Assembly (NCBI GenBank): GCA_018828145.1
Contig: JAHJWO010000024.1
Span: forward strand, 1 to 64,000
Origin: Alphaproteobacteria bacterium
GTDB taxonomy: Bacteria > Pseudomonadota > Alphaproteobacteria > Rhizobiales > Devosiaceae
Reading direction: 5' to 3'
Length of the DNA: 64,000 nucleotides
Part shown: positions 13,156 to 37,059 of the stretch, one piece after another
Layout: each line of letters starts with the position of its first letter
Numbering within the stretch: the stretch's first letter is position 1
Position numbers and translations under genes: made by a program
Notes under the pieces: model-generated
The model's input: only the letters and a program-made list of their open reading frames with translations
The model's database searches: none
Told to the model about the DNA's origin: nothing

Positions 13156-13305
13156 GGGAGTGAACCTGAACGCGTGCGTCGTGACTGAGCTTTAGCTATG
13201 CCGACGACGGCCCGCAACCAAGCCAGTTCTGCGCAACGCACTGTTCAAAGGGGTGAACGCGCCGGTCTGCTGGGCACCGCTGAAGCCCTCATGGCCCAGG
13301 GCGCT

Positions 13306-13330
13306 CAAAACGCTCCACTGGAGCGTTTTG
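13306..13330. repeat. Perfect hairpin outside the left end of the mobile element
   Basis: Perfect 11-bp arms CAAAACGCTCC / GGAGCGTTTTG with an ACT loop, 20 bp outside the first TGAACCATAAA copy. It could act as a bidirectional terminator or be part of the element's insertion site. Confidence 0.6.
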
Positions 13331-13350
13331 TCCCTTCGGGCCGTGTTCAA

Positions 13351-13469
13351 TGAACCATAAAGTTGGTGGCTGCCCACCGGAATCTGGGAATGTGCGGCGA
13401 TTGCTGAACCATAAGCCATCCCGTTCTTGAACCATAAAGACCGATCAGCACACCAAAATGAACCATAAA
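13351..13469. repeat. Left-end repeats of mobile element: four TGAACCATAA(A) copies
   Basis: Direct copies at 13351-13361, 13405-13414 (ten of eleven bases), 13428-13438 and 13459-13469, spaced irregularly by 13 to 43 bp. The third copy extends to TTGAACCATAAAGACCGA, which matches the inverted copy at the right end exactly for 18 bases. Multiple subterminal copies of a short motif in opposite orientation at the two ends are typical of transposase-binding sites in DDE transposons of the Tn7/Tn5053/IS21 type. The whole 13156-13507 stretch holds no gene. Confidence 0.8.
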
Positions 13470-13507
13470 AATGCATGGTCACAATTTGATCAGCGCCCCG
13501 GTCCCTA

Positions 13508-14122
13508 TTAGATCTTGAACGTGGATACAGGCTCTTCGTCACCAGGACGCAGCGTGGGTACGTTGTCGCCCATGATCAACTTGATGGTCTGCCAGGCCGT
13601 ATCGGCCTGCTTGATCCCGAAAGTGTCCGACATCCAGATCACGAAGGTCTCGGTGCTCATCATGTCCATGTCGAGCTCCAACACCCTGAGGGCCGCCCGG
13701 ACCTTGCGATCGTCCATGATCGCGACGATCGCTTCGCCTTCCTGAATCAGGTCGTCGATTACCGTCATCGCGCTGAGGATGCTCCGGTCGCCCCTGTTGC
13801 TCCAAGACGGCTTCGATTCCGGTTTGCTTCCGGCGTCGCGCCAGTTGGTCATGGCCTTGCGGTATTCCTCGCCCTCTATGGTCGGTTGCTCATGGATACG
13901 ATCGGCGTTGTCCGCGAACCACCTTGCGAGAATATCGCGCTGGCCAATTCGCTGGTCGCTACCTGGATCAGGGGCGCGCACAGCCTCTTCCTTGACCATG
14001 TCGGTGACCCAGACGTCGGCCCCGGGCACGAACAACCAATCGAGACCTTCCGGACCGAGCAGCGACAGCACCGACAACGGCGTATTGTCCGCGATGAGTA
14101 TACGGGGCTTCCGCTCAAACAT
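13508..14122 (-). CDS. PIN-domain toxin of a toxin-antitoxin pair
   Basis: A 204-aa protein with the acidic residues of a PIN ribonuclease: Asp in ILIADNTPLSVLSLL, Glu in MVKEEAV, Asp in NRGDRSIL and Asp in AIMDDRKVRAAL, in the right order. It is longer than a typical VapC (about 130 aa), with an insert in the middle. The start ATG at 14122 lies inside the antitoxin gene, giving an 8-bp overlap typical of toxin-antitoxin operons. A role as translation-blocking RNase is inferred from the fold and the gene pair. It sits inside the mobile element, where it could stabilise inheritance. Confidence 0.75.
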   Translation of the reverse strand: MFERKPRILIADNTPLSVLSLLGPEGLDWLFVPGADVWVTDMVKEEAVRAPDPGSDQRIGQRDILARWFADNADRIHEQPTIEGEEYRKAMTNWRDAGSKPESKPSWSNRGDRSILSAMTVIDDLIQEGEAIVAIMDDRKVRAALRVLELDMDMMSTETFVIWMSDTFGIKQADTAWQTIKLIMGDNVPTLRPGDEEPVSTFKI

Positions 14123-14480
14123 GGCCGCCTCCCTTGCCGATACCCAGGCGGCGTTCAGCACCCGCGATCTCGGCGTCGATCGCCGGGCGATCCTTGCCGG
14201 ACAATGCATGGTCGGCCATCTGCAGCACGAACGTGTCGAAGTCCTGGGTGTCGCGCCCGAGTGGATCAGGCGGCAGGCCACGCTTCTCCACGGGCCTGCG
14301 TCCGCGGAGTTCTGTGGGCACAGGTTCGTTGGCCGACGTCTTCAGGCGTGAGAACTCCTCTACGGTGACCATAACAAAGCGCGGCTTGCCGTGATTGGTG
14401 ATCACGACAGGCTCAACAAACGCGGACCGCTGTACCTCGCCGGTCTTCTGCTGGAGATCGAGAGAACTGAATTGCTTCAT
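14115..14480 (-). CDS. Phd/YefM-type antitoxin
   Basis: A 121-aa protein. The first 50 residues have the Phd/YefM DNA-binding fold signature (SSLDLQQKTGEV, PVVITNHGKPRFVMVTVEEF). The C-terminal 70 residues, rich in charged residues (GRDTQDFDTFVLQMADHAL), would wrap the toxin. ATG 14480 follows GGAG nine bases upstream. It overlaps the PIN toxin gene by 8 bp. Antitoxins of this kind repress their own promoter, and tandem repeats lie just upstream at 14507-14529. Confidence 0.82.
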   Translation of the reverse strand: MKQFSSLDLQQKTGEVQRSAFVEPVVITNHGKPRFVMVTVEEFSRLKTSANEPVPTELRGRRPVEKRGLPPDPLGRDTQDFDTFVLQMADHALSGKDRPAIDAEIAGAERRLGIGKGGGHV

Positions 14481-14506
14481 CGGGTGGACTCCATGACGAA
14501 GCACAA

Positions 14507-14529
14507 TATACGTGTTTTACGTGTATTTA
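14507..14529. promoter_or_regulatory. Candidate autoregulatory operator of the Phd-PIN pair
   Basis: Direct repeats TACGTGT at 14509-14515 and 14518-14524 in an AT-rich stretch 26 bp upstream of the antitoxin ATG. On the minus strand this reads ACACGTAAAACACGT. Tandem short sites in front of the antitoxin gene are usual for Phd/YefM autorepression. Confidence 0.6.
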
Positions 14530-14933
14530 ACAATCCTTCCAGGACGGCGGCCTGGGACATGCTGGTTCAATACCGGCGGCGTCCAGAAGGGCGATGGCGT
14601 CCCGCGACCGCTTGGTGCCAAGAATCTCCGACAGCTCGGGCACCGTGACATAGGTGCTCTTGAACCGCTCGATTTCGTTCGGCGCCAAGAACGTGCCCTT
14701 CACGTCAGGGATGGTTTTCAGCACCTTCCGCCTCACGAAGTCGGCGGTCGAATTGTAGGAGAGGCCCAGCAGCGGCGCTGCATCCCGCATGGTCAACCCG
14801 GCTGCTTCTCCTGCCTCACCGCCCTGATCAACGCCGAGATGGACACCAAGAATCGAGGAACACCCGCGGCCTTCTGATCGATGGCAACGATCGGCACGGT
14901 TCCTGACAGCACCATTTGCAGGTGTCTCAAGCC
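14527..14933 (-). pseudogene. Frameshifted TniQ-like DNA-binding gene remnant
   Basis: Two minus-strand frames join into one plausible protein. The first gives HLQMVLSGTVPIVAID and GVPRFLVSISALIRAVRQEK and stops at TGA near 14793. The other continues as LTMRDAAPLLGLSYNSTADF, then LAPNEIERFKSTYVTVPEL and LGTKRSRDAIALLDAAGIEP. A single base lost around 14793-14801 explains the break (CCG GGT then TTG). The pattern of a helix-turn-helix followed by an F-x-x-x-Y-V-x-x-x-E-L segment resembles the C-terminal part of TniQ/TnsD-family target-selection proteins. The 5' end is also missing. The family call is tentative; the frameshift is well supported. Confidence 0.45.
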
Positions 14934-15000
14934 ACCTGATGGCGTGACGTGGTGCCTTGCTTGGAAGGGAAGCATCATCGGTGAGCAGGAGATGCTCGCC

Positions 15001-15567
15001 ATGTTGTCCAATGACATATTCCGATATGAGTTCACCCTCCCAGATACGATCGCATCCTGGACTGCCGACCACGTATTTTTCGGTAGTGTCTCCCCCATCG
15101 ACCGTCACCCCGGCTATGCCGACACTCGGATATATGGCTTCGAGATCGAAATAGCTTGGAGGTTGAACTCATCGCACATGAACCGCTTTGAGTTCTCCTA
15201 CGCGCTGGACCTTACGGATGACGATATCAAGTGGAGACGGTACAGTGGTGAAAACGGTCCTGGATATCGGGCAATGCCTCGAAGCGTCGCATCGCGTGCC
15301 GAAGTTGCCGCCGCATGGGTGGCCTGCGATGTTCAATATCATCTGAGTGGCTTCAAGAAAGAAATCGCCCAGTATATGGCGATCCAATCGCTTTGGGATC
15401 TAAAGCTTGGGAAACTGGCATCTTACACGACTTCGAAGCGGACGGATCTTTCCAAGTTAGAAAAACGCGTCGATCAGACCCTGTCGATGCTGCATCAAAT
15501 GTATCCATACGAAGATCATCCTCACCCGATCCCCGCCATGCTGCCGGAGACGGGGCTCCGTATCTGA
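15001..15567 (+). CDS. Hypothetical protein inside the mobile element
   Basis: A 188-aa protein not recognised as any family. It has no signal peptide or membrane segment. Readable stretches include FRYEFTLPDTIASWTADHVF, RFEFSYALDLTDDDIKWRRY, EVAAAWVACDVQYHLSGFKK and a charged helical end (KRTDLSKLEKRVDQTL). ATG 15001 has AGGAG nine bases upstream; ATG 14992 is an alternative. Codon use is less GC-biased than that of the flanking genes, so it is probably a passenger gene brought by the element. It runs opposite to the toxin-antitoxin genes and its stop codon abuts the gyrB fragment. Confidence 0.55.
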   Translation: MLSNDIFRYEFTLPDTIASWTADHVFFGSVSPIDRHPGYADTRIYGFEIEIAWRLNSSHMNRFEFSYALDLTDDDIKWRRYSGENGPGYRAMPRSVASRAEVAAAWVACDVQYHLSGFKKEIAQYMAIQSLWDLKLGKLASYTTSKRTDLSKLEKRVDQTLSMLHQMYPYEDHPHPIPAMLPETGLRI

Positions 15568-15570
15568 CCT

Positions 15571-15711
15571 GCCTACAAAGGCTTTGGTGAGATGAATGCC
15601 GAACAGCTCTGGGAAACCACGCTCGCCCCCAATGCCCGCACCCTGCTACGCGTCGAGATCGACCAGACCGACGAAGCCGACATAATCTTCACCGCCCTGA
15701 TGGGCGACCTG
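15571..15711 (+). pseudogene. Inverted fragment of the gyrB 3' end
   Basis: Reads [20 protein letters not shown], then [20 protein letters not shown] and TALMGDLE, and matches the C-terminal region of the neighbouring intact GyrB ([16 protein letters not shown]..., [10 protein letters not shown]) with scattered changes (by eye about 88 percent at DNA level). It lies on the opposite strand, tail to tail with gyrB, and begins straight after the stop codon of the hypothetical gene. Similarity ends after GDLE; the last GyrB residues are replaced by unrelated sequence. The open frame continues to 15804 from ATG 15592 as a 70-aa peptide, but there is no sign that it is expressed. Confidence 0.85.
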
Positions 15712-15720
15712 GAAATGAAA

Positions 15721-15746
15721 GACCCCAGGGATCGCTCCCTAGGGTC
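15721..15746 (-). terminator. Possible gyrB terminator / hairpin at the right end of the element
   Basis: Arms GACCCCAGGGA and TCCCTAGGGTC (10 of 11 paired) with a TCGC loop. Read on the minus strand the hairpin is followed by TTTCATTT, compatible with an intrinsic terminator for gyrB. It lies inside the element boundary, between the gyrB fragment and the right-end repeats. Confidence 0.5.
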
Positions 15747-15757
15747 TCAAGAACCGC

Positions 15758-15787
15758 TTTATGGTTCAACTCGGTCTTTATGGTTCA
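15758..15787. repeat. Right-end repeats of mobile element: two inverted TGAACCATAAA copies
   Basis: TTTATGGTTCA at 15758-15768 and again at 15777-15787. The outer copy with its inner flank (TCGGTCTTTATGGTTCAA) is the exact reverse complement of the third left-end copy over 18 bases. The outer copy ends 14 bp before the gyrB stop codon. Confidence 0.8.
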
Positions 15788-15800
15788 ATGCACAAGCGCC

Positions 15801-18290
<2,490 letters not shown>

Positions 18291-36179: not shown

Positions 36180-37059
36180 CGTCGCGAAACTCCTCCACCA
36201 GGGCAGCGATGAAGGCGGTTACCCGGCGTGGCACGAGATCGCGCGAGGGGTGGAGCGTATGGATGGGCATGGTGGGCAGGCGCCAGCCCTGCAAGATCGG
36301 CACCAGACGCCCGGCCTCGATATCGTCCTGCACCAGGTCGAGCGGCAGATAGACCACCCCAGCGCCATCGATGGCCAGCATGCGCTGCGCCTCGTCGCTG
36401 TCGATCTCGACGCCGCCCATGACCTCCACAGTCACTGCCGTGCTGCCTGCATCGAGGAAGCTCCAGCGATTGCGCGGCACGAGGTTGAGATTGAGGATGC
36501 AGCGACAGCGCGTCAGATCGGTCGGGTGCTGTGGCGCACCGTGCCGCGCGATGAAGGCCGGCGCGGCGCAGCAGACAAAGCCATAGGTGCCGAGGCGCCG
36601 CGCGACGAGACTGGAACTGGGTAAGTCCCCCACGCGCACCGCAAGGTCATAGCCCTCGGCCACGAGATCCACCCGGCGATTGGCGAGGCTCATCTCGAAG
36701 ACGATTGCAGGATGAGCCTCGGTGAACTGCGCGATGATTGCGGGCAGCCGGCGTATGCCAAGCGTCGTCGGGGCGCTGACGCGCAGGCGCCCGGTGAGCG
36801 TCCCCGCCGCCGAAATCTCGTCCAGCGCGGCGGTCGCCTCGATCACCGCTTCGGCACGAGCCAAGAAGGCCTGCCCCGTCTCGGTCAGCCGCTGGTTGCG
36901 CGTGGTGCGCTCGATCAGCTTGGCGCCGTAGCGCTGTTCCAGCGCCTGAATGCGCCGACCCACCATGGCCGGCGACAGGTTGAGCTGACGCCCCGCCTTG
37001 GCGAAACTGCCTATGCGGGCCGCGGCAATGAAGGTCCTGAGTTCTTCCAATTCAGCCAT
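36172..37059 (-). CDS. LysR-family transcriptional regulator
   Basis: A 295-aa regulator. The winged HTH is at the N-terminus (LRTFIAAARIGSFAKAGRQL, LSPAMVGRRIQALEQRYG, KLIERTTRNQRLTETG). The effector domain contains GRLRVSAPTTLGIRRLPAII and is of the CrgA/DhcR-like group. ATG 37059 is the natural start. It is divergent from an NADPH-dependent oxidoreductase gene with 105 bp between starts, containing TGCAAT half-sites, so that gene is its likely target. Confidence 0.9.
   Translation of the reverse strand: MAELEELRTFIAAARIGSFAKAGRQLNLSPAMVGRRIQALEQRYGAKLIERTTRNQRLTETGQAFLARAEAVIEATAALDEISAAGTLTGRLRVSAPTTLGIRRLPAIIAQFTEAHPAIVFEMSLANRRVDLVAEGYDLAVRVGDLPSSSLVARRLGTYGFVCCAAPAFIARHGAPQHPTDLTRCRCILNLNLVPRNRWSFLDAGSTAVTVEVMGGVEIDSDEAQRMLAIDGAGVVYLPLDLVQDDIEAGRLVPILQGWRLPTMPIHTLHPSRDLVPRRVTAFIAALVEEFRDAS

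Follow-up and report, generated by a model that had tools for sequence, protein, structure and literature searches.

Transposons of the Tn5053/Tn402 group carry tniA, tniB and tniQ with a resolvase and have no TnsA, and IS21 elements carry only istA and istB; both groups have several subterminal transposase sites and a TniB-like ATPase or Mu-like transposase. Tn7 turns its tnsA side towards its target gene, glmS, and lies about 20 nt past the stop codon; another gene of interest here, parE, is a paralogue of gyrB. Tn7 is described as inserting past the stop codon of an essential gene, with the TnsD site of Tn7-like elements 23–58 bp from the insertion point (PMC2918618), and a 5-bp target duplication is given as general for Tn7 relatives, some type I-F3 CRISPR-associated transposons (CASTs) having a parE-targeting TnsD (PMC11406308). 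Here, we analysed a 64,000-nt stretch of contig JAHJWO010000024.1 (assembly GCA_018828145.1, an alphaproteobacterium of the Devosiaceae; hereafter the window), in which positions 13344-15794 are very probably what decay and internal deletion have left of a Tn7-like transposon, with gyrB as its putative homing site.

The family to which the window element belongs resembles Tn7 in most features: TnsA, TnsB, TnsC and a TniQ-domain selector, tips of the form TGT...ACA, subterminal arrays of (here predicted) TnsB-type sites, an insertion point just beyond an essential gene's stop codon, and a tnsA side that faces this gene. They differ in using gyrB and not glmS, in lying 5–8 nt past the stop codon, in a 4-bp rather than 5-bp duplication and, for one branch, in carrying a gyrB tail copy within the right end. 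With the parE-targeting I-F3 CASTs they share a location beside a type II topoisomerase B-subunit gene, and I-F3 TnsB was the best solved-chain match, but the gene is parE there and gyrB here. They share subterminal site arrays and a TniB-like ATPase or Mu-like transposase with Tn5053/Tn402 and IS21, but have a TnsA-type endonuclease and a fixed place beside a housekeeping gene. The probable gyrB homing, the 4-bp footprint of the relatives and the gyrB tail copy were out of reach of a first-pass annotation made from the sequence alone. No description of gyrB homing by Tn7-like, TnsD or TniQ elements was found in the open-licence literature searched, including passages of PMC10293859, PMC8649781, PMC12452197 and PMC11406308, and a narrow check of the same kind (PMC10201428 and PMC11406308, in part) found no 4-bp duplication in Tn7-like elements; either may be in print elsewhere.

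The ends of the element and the adjoining gene are as follows (G000 denotes the window's own genome, other G-numbers the genomes compared, and G031 Devosia riboflavina).

13344..13475, plus strand: left end, with a TGT tip at 13344 and four predicted TnsB-type sites, TGAACCATAA(A), with start spacing 54-23-31
13351, 13405, 13428 and 13459, plus strand: left-end sites, exact matches to TGAACCATAA
15757..15794, minus strand: right end, with two predicted TnsB-type sites and a ...GCACA tip at 15794
15759-15768 and 15778-15787, minus strand: right-end sites, exact matches to TGAACCATAA
15801..18254, minus strand: gyrB, the putative homing gene, with Pfam gyrase B domains and a stop codon 6 nt from the right-end tip

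The first-pass annotation had reported four direct repeats at the left, two inverted copies at the right and an exact 18-base inverted pair, and all of these were recovered. At up to one mismatch, TGAACCATAA had seven matches in the window (the six exact sites and one single-mismatch site elsewhere), a number reached by 0 of 100 shuffles (mean 0.81, largest 4), and TTGAACCATAAAGACCGA at 13427-13444 is an exact inverted match of 15771-15788 (18 nt). The extent first given, 13351..15787, is widened slightly by the TGT...ACA-type tips (TGTTCAATGAACC...GGTTCAATGCACA), which place the boundaries at 13344-15794 (2451 bp). The exact 12-mer TGAACCATAAAG occurs four times in the whole genome (4.43 Mb), each time within the element; at one mismatch there are four further places, one of them also in the element. 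Among 75 genus genomes (own included), three contained the paired end motif, each with one forward and one reverse match, and none of the 75 contained the same pattern read backwards. The spacing of left-end sites is alike in relatives (53-23-31 in G031 and 54-22-32 in G068), with some sites one mismatch off.

The same tips bound a complete element of 15,484 bp in G031, also beside gyrB. On one strand it carries tniQ (607 aa), tnsC, tnsB and tnsA; a Phd/YefM antitoxin and its partner open reading frame (ORF) lie by the left end, and the right-side cargo includes genes for a MerR regulator and for a heavy-metal-domain cation-efflux protein. A complete element with transposase genes between such ends was what the earlier annotation had proposed to look for in related genomes. 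When the 74 other genus genomes were searched with the window stretch, G031 was the only long match among the matches listed; G068 matched over ~215 bp of the right end, and the other matches listed were gyrB itself and a dispersed flank repeat. A scan of the whole collection for the end pattern returned six stretches, namely D. riboflavina, a Devosia metagenome-assembled genome, one short-unit repeat (L041) and three others. G031 TnsB (738 aa) matched Mu-transpos_C (PF09299, E 4e-11, above the cut-off) and rve (E 1e-4, below its cut-off), and among solved chains it matched Tn7-like TnsB (best E 1.6e-42), with I-F3 TnsB closest. TnsC has TniB and AAA domains (PF05621 TniB, E 2e-22). TniQ matched PF06527 (E 8e-11) and, by sequence, a solved TniQ chain (E 3e-8); its structure model matched no fold significantly, the best hit being a TniQ chain at E 0.046. 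The TnsA candidate had neither a Pfam match nor a solved-chain match by sequence, and the best fold match of its low-confidence model (predicted local distance difference test score, pLDDT, 60) was Tn7 TnsA (E 3e-6), such that the protein appears TnsA-like by fold and not by sequence.

Target duplications of exactly 4 bp flank five of five intact elements (CGGC in G031, AGGT in G029, CCTC in G237, TAGA in G006 and TCGG in G068), all of which have TGT...ACA tips like those of the window element. No alternative tip offset within 3 bases fits at least four of the five at 4 bp or longer, and a scan for TGT/ACA pairs at least 6 kb apart, in which a duplication of at least 4 bp was itself required, gave these ends the top rank in G031, G029 and G237. 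The G068 insertion site, with one copy of the duplication, is uninterrupted in 8 of the 75 genus genomes, the window's own included (68–76% identity), and is present in G068 itself only as two halves. The 5-bp duplication is the defining feature of Tn7-like elements that was looked for and is absent here. A strict 4-bp stagger contradicts the rule stated for Tn7 relatives and would let transposase geometry be dissected.

Relative to the gyrB stop codon, the right-end tip lies at 6 nt in G000 and at 8 nt in both G031 and G029 (genus gyrB ends surveyed in 68 of the 75 genomes; G042 has only 16 nt after the gene), and at 5 nt in G237, which belongs to another family of the order. The G029 and G237 elements carry their own tns genes, and the identity of TniQ to that of G031 is 40% in G029, 29% in G237 and 35% in G006. 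The divergent G029 and G237 elements also start just after gyrB, which makes this gene an apparent homing site, with the tips of three intact elements and the relic 5–8 nt beyond its stop codon. A gyrB-specific selector, if true, would mean that the known homing sites extend to another essential gene, one that is near-universal. The first-pass annotation had also proposed to examine the region downstream of gyrB in relatives, where gyrB and the window's monooxygenase gene do lie close together without the element (separated by 105 nt in G028 and by 276 nt in G068, cf. ~2.6 kb in the window). The surroundings of gyrB differ among genomes, and the monooxygenase gene was found near it in 21 of 68 neighbouring stretches scanned (most ~1.6 kb, a few genomes twice).

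The interior and left flank of the window element contain the following.

13301..13343, no strand assigned: left flank, a dispersed hairpin (repetitive extragenic palindrome-like, REP-like) sequence of the genus, outside the element, with matches at several genus places ending at ~13343
13508..14281, minus strand: ORF beside the antitoxin, a toxin by position only, with a 207-aa homologue in G031 and no Pfam family above the cut-off
14115..14504, minus strand: Phd/YefM antitoxin (PF02604, E 1.8e-7)
14536..14927, minus strand: tniQ/tnsD remnant, residues ~453-583 of 607, in two frames with stops, 84% and 66% identical to G031 TniQ
14881..15567, plus strand: 228-aa ORF of no known family, mostly within the stretch unmatched in the G031 element
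15573..15712, plus strand: copy of the gyrB 3' coding tail (~RYKGLGEMN...MGDL), inverted relative to the real gyrB (PF00986, E 2.8e-14)
15713..15748, minus strand: terminator-like hairpin (stem of 13 bp) with a U-rich run, oriented to meet transcription coming in from gyrB

Aligned with the G031 element, the window element resolves into four blocks (the two ends and, between them, the toxin-antitoxin-like pair and a piece from the 3' part of tniQ), and ~14921-15571 has no match there. The loss of the transposase genes, as proposed in the first-pass annotation, was borne out: nothing in the window matched tnsA, tnsB or tnsC credibly (best E 0.094), and only the frame-broken tniQ piece is left. 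Both ORFs of the pair are under purifying selection relative to G031, with ratios of nonsynonymous to synonymous divergence (dN/dS) of 0.075 for the toxin-position ORF and 0.10 for the antitoxin, and retention of this intact pair may explain the persistence of the remnant. Synonymous divergence (dS) from G031 is uneven (~1.0 for the larger tniQ piece, 0.61 for host gyrB and 0.32 for the toxin-position ORF), a pattern that speaks for a mosaic and against plain vertical descent of a single insertion. The hairpin has a fold z-score of -4.8 on the minus strand, and a similar feature in G031 has one of -3.9. Stretches similar to the REP-like flank occur downstream of gyrB in several Devosia species and also at G000:C27 and C36.

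In G000, G031 and G068, the gyrB tail copy is found immediately inward of the right end. It spans about RYKGLGEMN to MGDL and is inverted relative to the adjoining gyrB in G000 and G031. In the window it is ~140 nt long (15573-15712 vs 15863-16002, 86% identity). All three copies lose gyrB identity right after MGDL, a common 3' edge that is 83, 84 and 105 nt from the tip in the three elements and leaves out the final 21 codons of gyrB. In G000 and G031 the copy is followed by a terminator-like hairpin that faces read-through from gyrB, and G068 also has a hairpin there. Only the real gyrB tail was present in the stretches read from G029 and G237. Each copy most resembled the gyrB of a genome other than its own (29 gyrB compared): G008 for the G000 copy (92.1%, own 85.7%), G044 for the G031 copy (89.3%, own 77.5%) and G033 for the G068 copy (95.2%, own 90.4%), and these remained the best matches among 68 gyrB. 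The copies have no rare substitutions in common; only eight gap columns at the 5' edge are shared, by G000 and G031. The G068 copy has three rare states and the G031 copy ten of its own, indels counted, and in the tree the G031 copy falls outside a group with the G000 and G068 copies. Independent capture or gene conversion of the copies is suggested by these comparisons. Grouping each copy with its own gyrB was not rejected by the approximately unbiased (AU) test (p 0.069, 0.051 and 0.308), and with AU p values of 0.05–0.31 across seven tests separate origins are not proven. Embedded target tails could reveal an element's earlier hosts. No report of Tn7 elements that carry incomplete copies of glmS or attTn7 came up in a literature search. 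In G041 (L032:1838-1894), about the last 19 gyrB codons are duplicated in the same orientation ~0.9 kb from gyrB; a CN-hydrolase-like gene separates the two and, by eye, a hicA-like ORF lies beyond. This duplication starts about where the right-end copy stops.

Judged from homology, position and element anatomy, TnsB, a DDE transposase, would bind the TGAACCATAA-type site arrays at both ends in intact relatives, with TnsA cutting the other strand and TnsC acting as a bridge. TniQ/TnsD would recognise the gyrB 3' end and direct the element to a few bases past the stop codon, where the two strands would be joined 4 bp apart. A branch member beside gyrB may have gained the ~140-bp inverted tail copy in its right end (template switching or recombination being a guess), and the copy would travel with the element and undergo gene conversion with the resident gyrB, which would explain why each resembles the gyrB of a different species. 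The window copy has lost tnsABC and most of tniQ and keeps the toxin-antitoxin-like pair. The ends, the genes of the relatives, the places of insertion and the 4-bp duplications were observed directly.

Several observations weigh against a gyrB-homing, Tn7-like origin. The window element has no flanking target duplication (CGCT vs CGGC, read in the gyrB direction). Two intact relatives lie elsewhere, that of G006 at the 3' end of smc and the mini-element of G068 inside an AraC/GyrI-type gene, so that gyrB is one site among others. The TnsA Pfam family was unmatched by the proteins of three of four elements, and the match in G237 (PF08722, E 0.001) was below the cut-off. A single clade of the three tail copies was not rejected (AU test, p 0.111), and a class-level TniQ search, run with no positive control, found 0 of 385 genomes at E 1e-40. 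In a rival reading, the window element is not dead but a non-autonomous mini-element that related TnsABC and TniQ could still move in trans. Its tips and all six sites are present, and the G068 element (3563 bp, L018:732-4294, with AbiEi/AbiEii cargo, a gyrB tail copy and no tns genes seen in the ORF list) moved precisely into its AraC-type gene with a 4-bp duplication; given the unduplicated flanks and paired ends that occur only once in the genome, we regard a still mobile window element as conceivable but rather unlikely. A reading of the repeats as common dispersed or ancestral sequence with no role in mobility could cite the left flank, a dispersed genus repeat, but has a negligible probability: end pairs occur in only 3 of 75 genomes and are linked to tns genes in G031, and relatives have gyrB and the monooxygenase gene close together without the element. 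Neither of the findings that the first-pass annotation had said would count against it, dispersed repeats with no link to transposase genes or an ancestral, fixed 2.4 kb, was encountered; fixed ancestral sequence is ruled out, with G031 alone of the 74 other genus genomes matching at length.

The first-pass annotation had named Tn7, Tn5053 and IS21 together as possible types, of which the Tn7-like assignment stands, on the tnsA-B-C-tniQ set of G031, and the other two fall. In favour of an IS21 or Tn5053/Tn402 element, the 4-bp duplications are unlike canonical Tn7 and TnsC has a TniB domain, but the four genes are ordered tnsA-B-C-tniQ, a TnsA-like fold is predicted, TnsB is closest to Tn7-like TnsB among solved chains, and insertion is just past an essential gene. 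Membership of Tn5053/Tn402 was rejected on the TnsA-like gene upstream of tnsB in G031, G029, G006 and G237 (assigned in G237 from position, alignment and the sub-cut-off Pfam match), and that of IS21 on the four-gene tns set and an IS21 model score of 19.9 bits (cut-off 160); either origin is highly improbable. The tail copy might itself have a function within the right end (as a landing site for further elements, a decoy that sequesters TniQ, or a recombination handle) rather than being a passive capture. Its presence in three of three branch elements with a common 3' edge and the few rare states in G068 favour a function, but the G031 copy has indels and ten rare states of its own, the G029 and G237 stretches read have only the real tail, and the landing-site idea is weakened because a Tn7-like TnsD site would fall within the final 21 codons that are missing from the copy; we consider a function unlikely. 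An extended form of the preferred reading, in which these elements are a separate Tn7-like lineage with a 4-bp stagger and gyrB homing, whose tail copy, carried in one branch, is repeatedly overwritten by host gyrB, records the previous host and serves as landing site, decoy or recombination handle, is likewise doubtful as a whole.

Further relatives of the remnant were sought with TniQ. At the order level, 5 of 397 genomes, including G000 and G006, matched at E 1e-25, and 6 of 247 genomes of the G237 family did so at E 1e-40, G237 among them. Plasmids gave only distant TniQ relatives (13 records, all <60% identity) and no match to the G031 left end. In the stretches fetched around six distant TniQ relatives, no gyrB was matched, and clear ends were found only for a candidate element in G551; G505 likewise gave no gyrB. 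End-like sequence lies beside gyrB in G022 and G027, with no match to tns genes in 4.8 kb to the contig end and 19.9 kb, respectively; that of G022 (L113), a TGTGCATTGAAC-like sequence shortly after the gyrB stop codon, is possibly a worn end or chance. G063 was flagged beside gyrB by the motif test but reads, by eye, as a hicA gene. The G006 relative at smc is 40,256 bp long (L031:4338 to L053:4792, duplication TAGA) and has a DrmA-like (DISARM-type) gene among its cargo. The G551 candidate runs from L130:3646 to joined position 36613, with tips that match at 14 of 16 bases, a 5-bp duplication (CAAGG) and, near one end, an FtsH-like gene. In three related Tn7-like elements, a gene for an FtsH-like AAA/M41 protease lies on the tnsA side of the tns genes (L029:8705-10678, L031:15858-17831 and L048:1612-3612).

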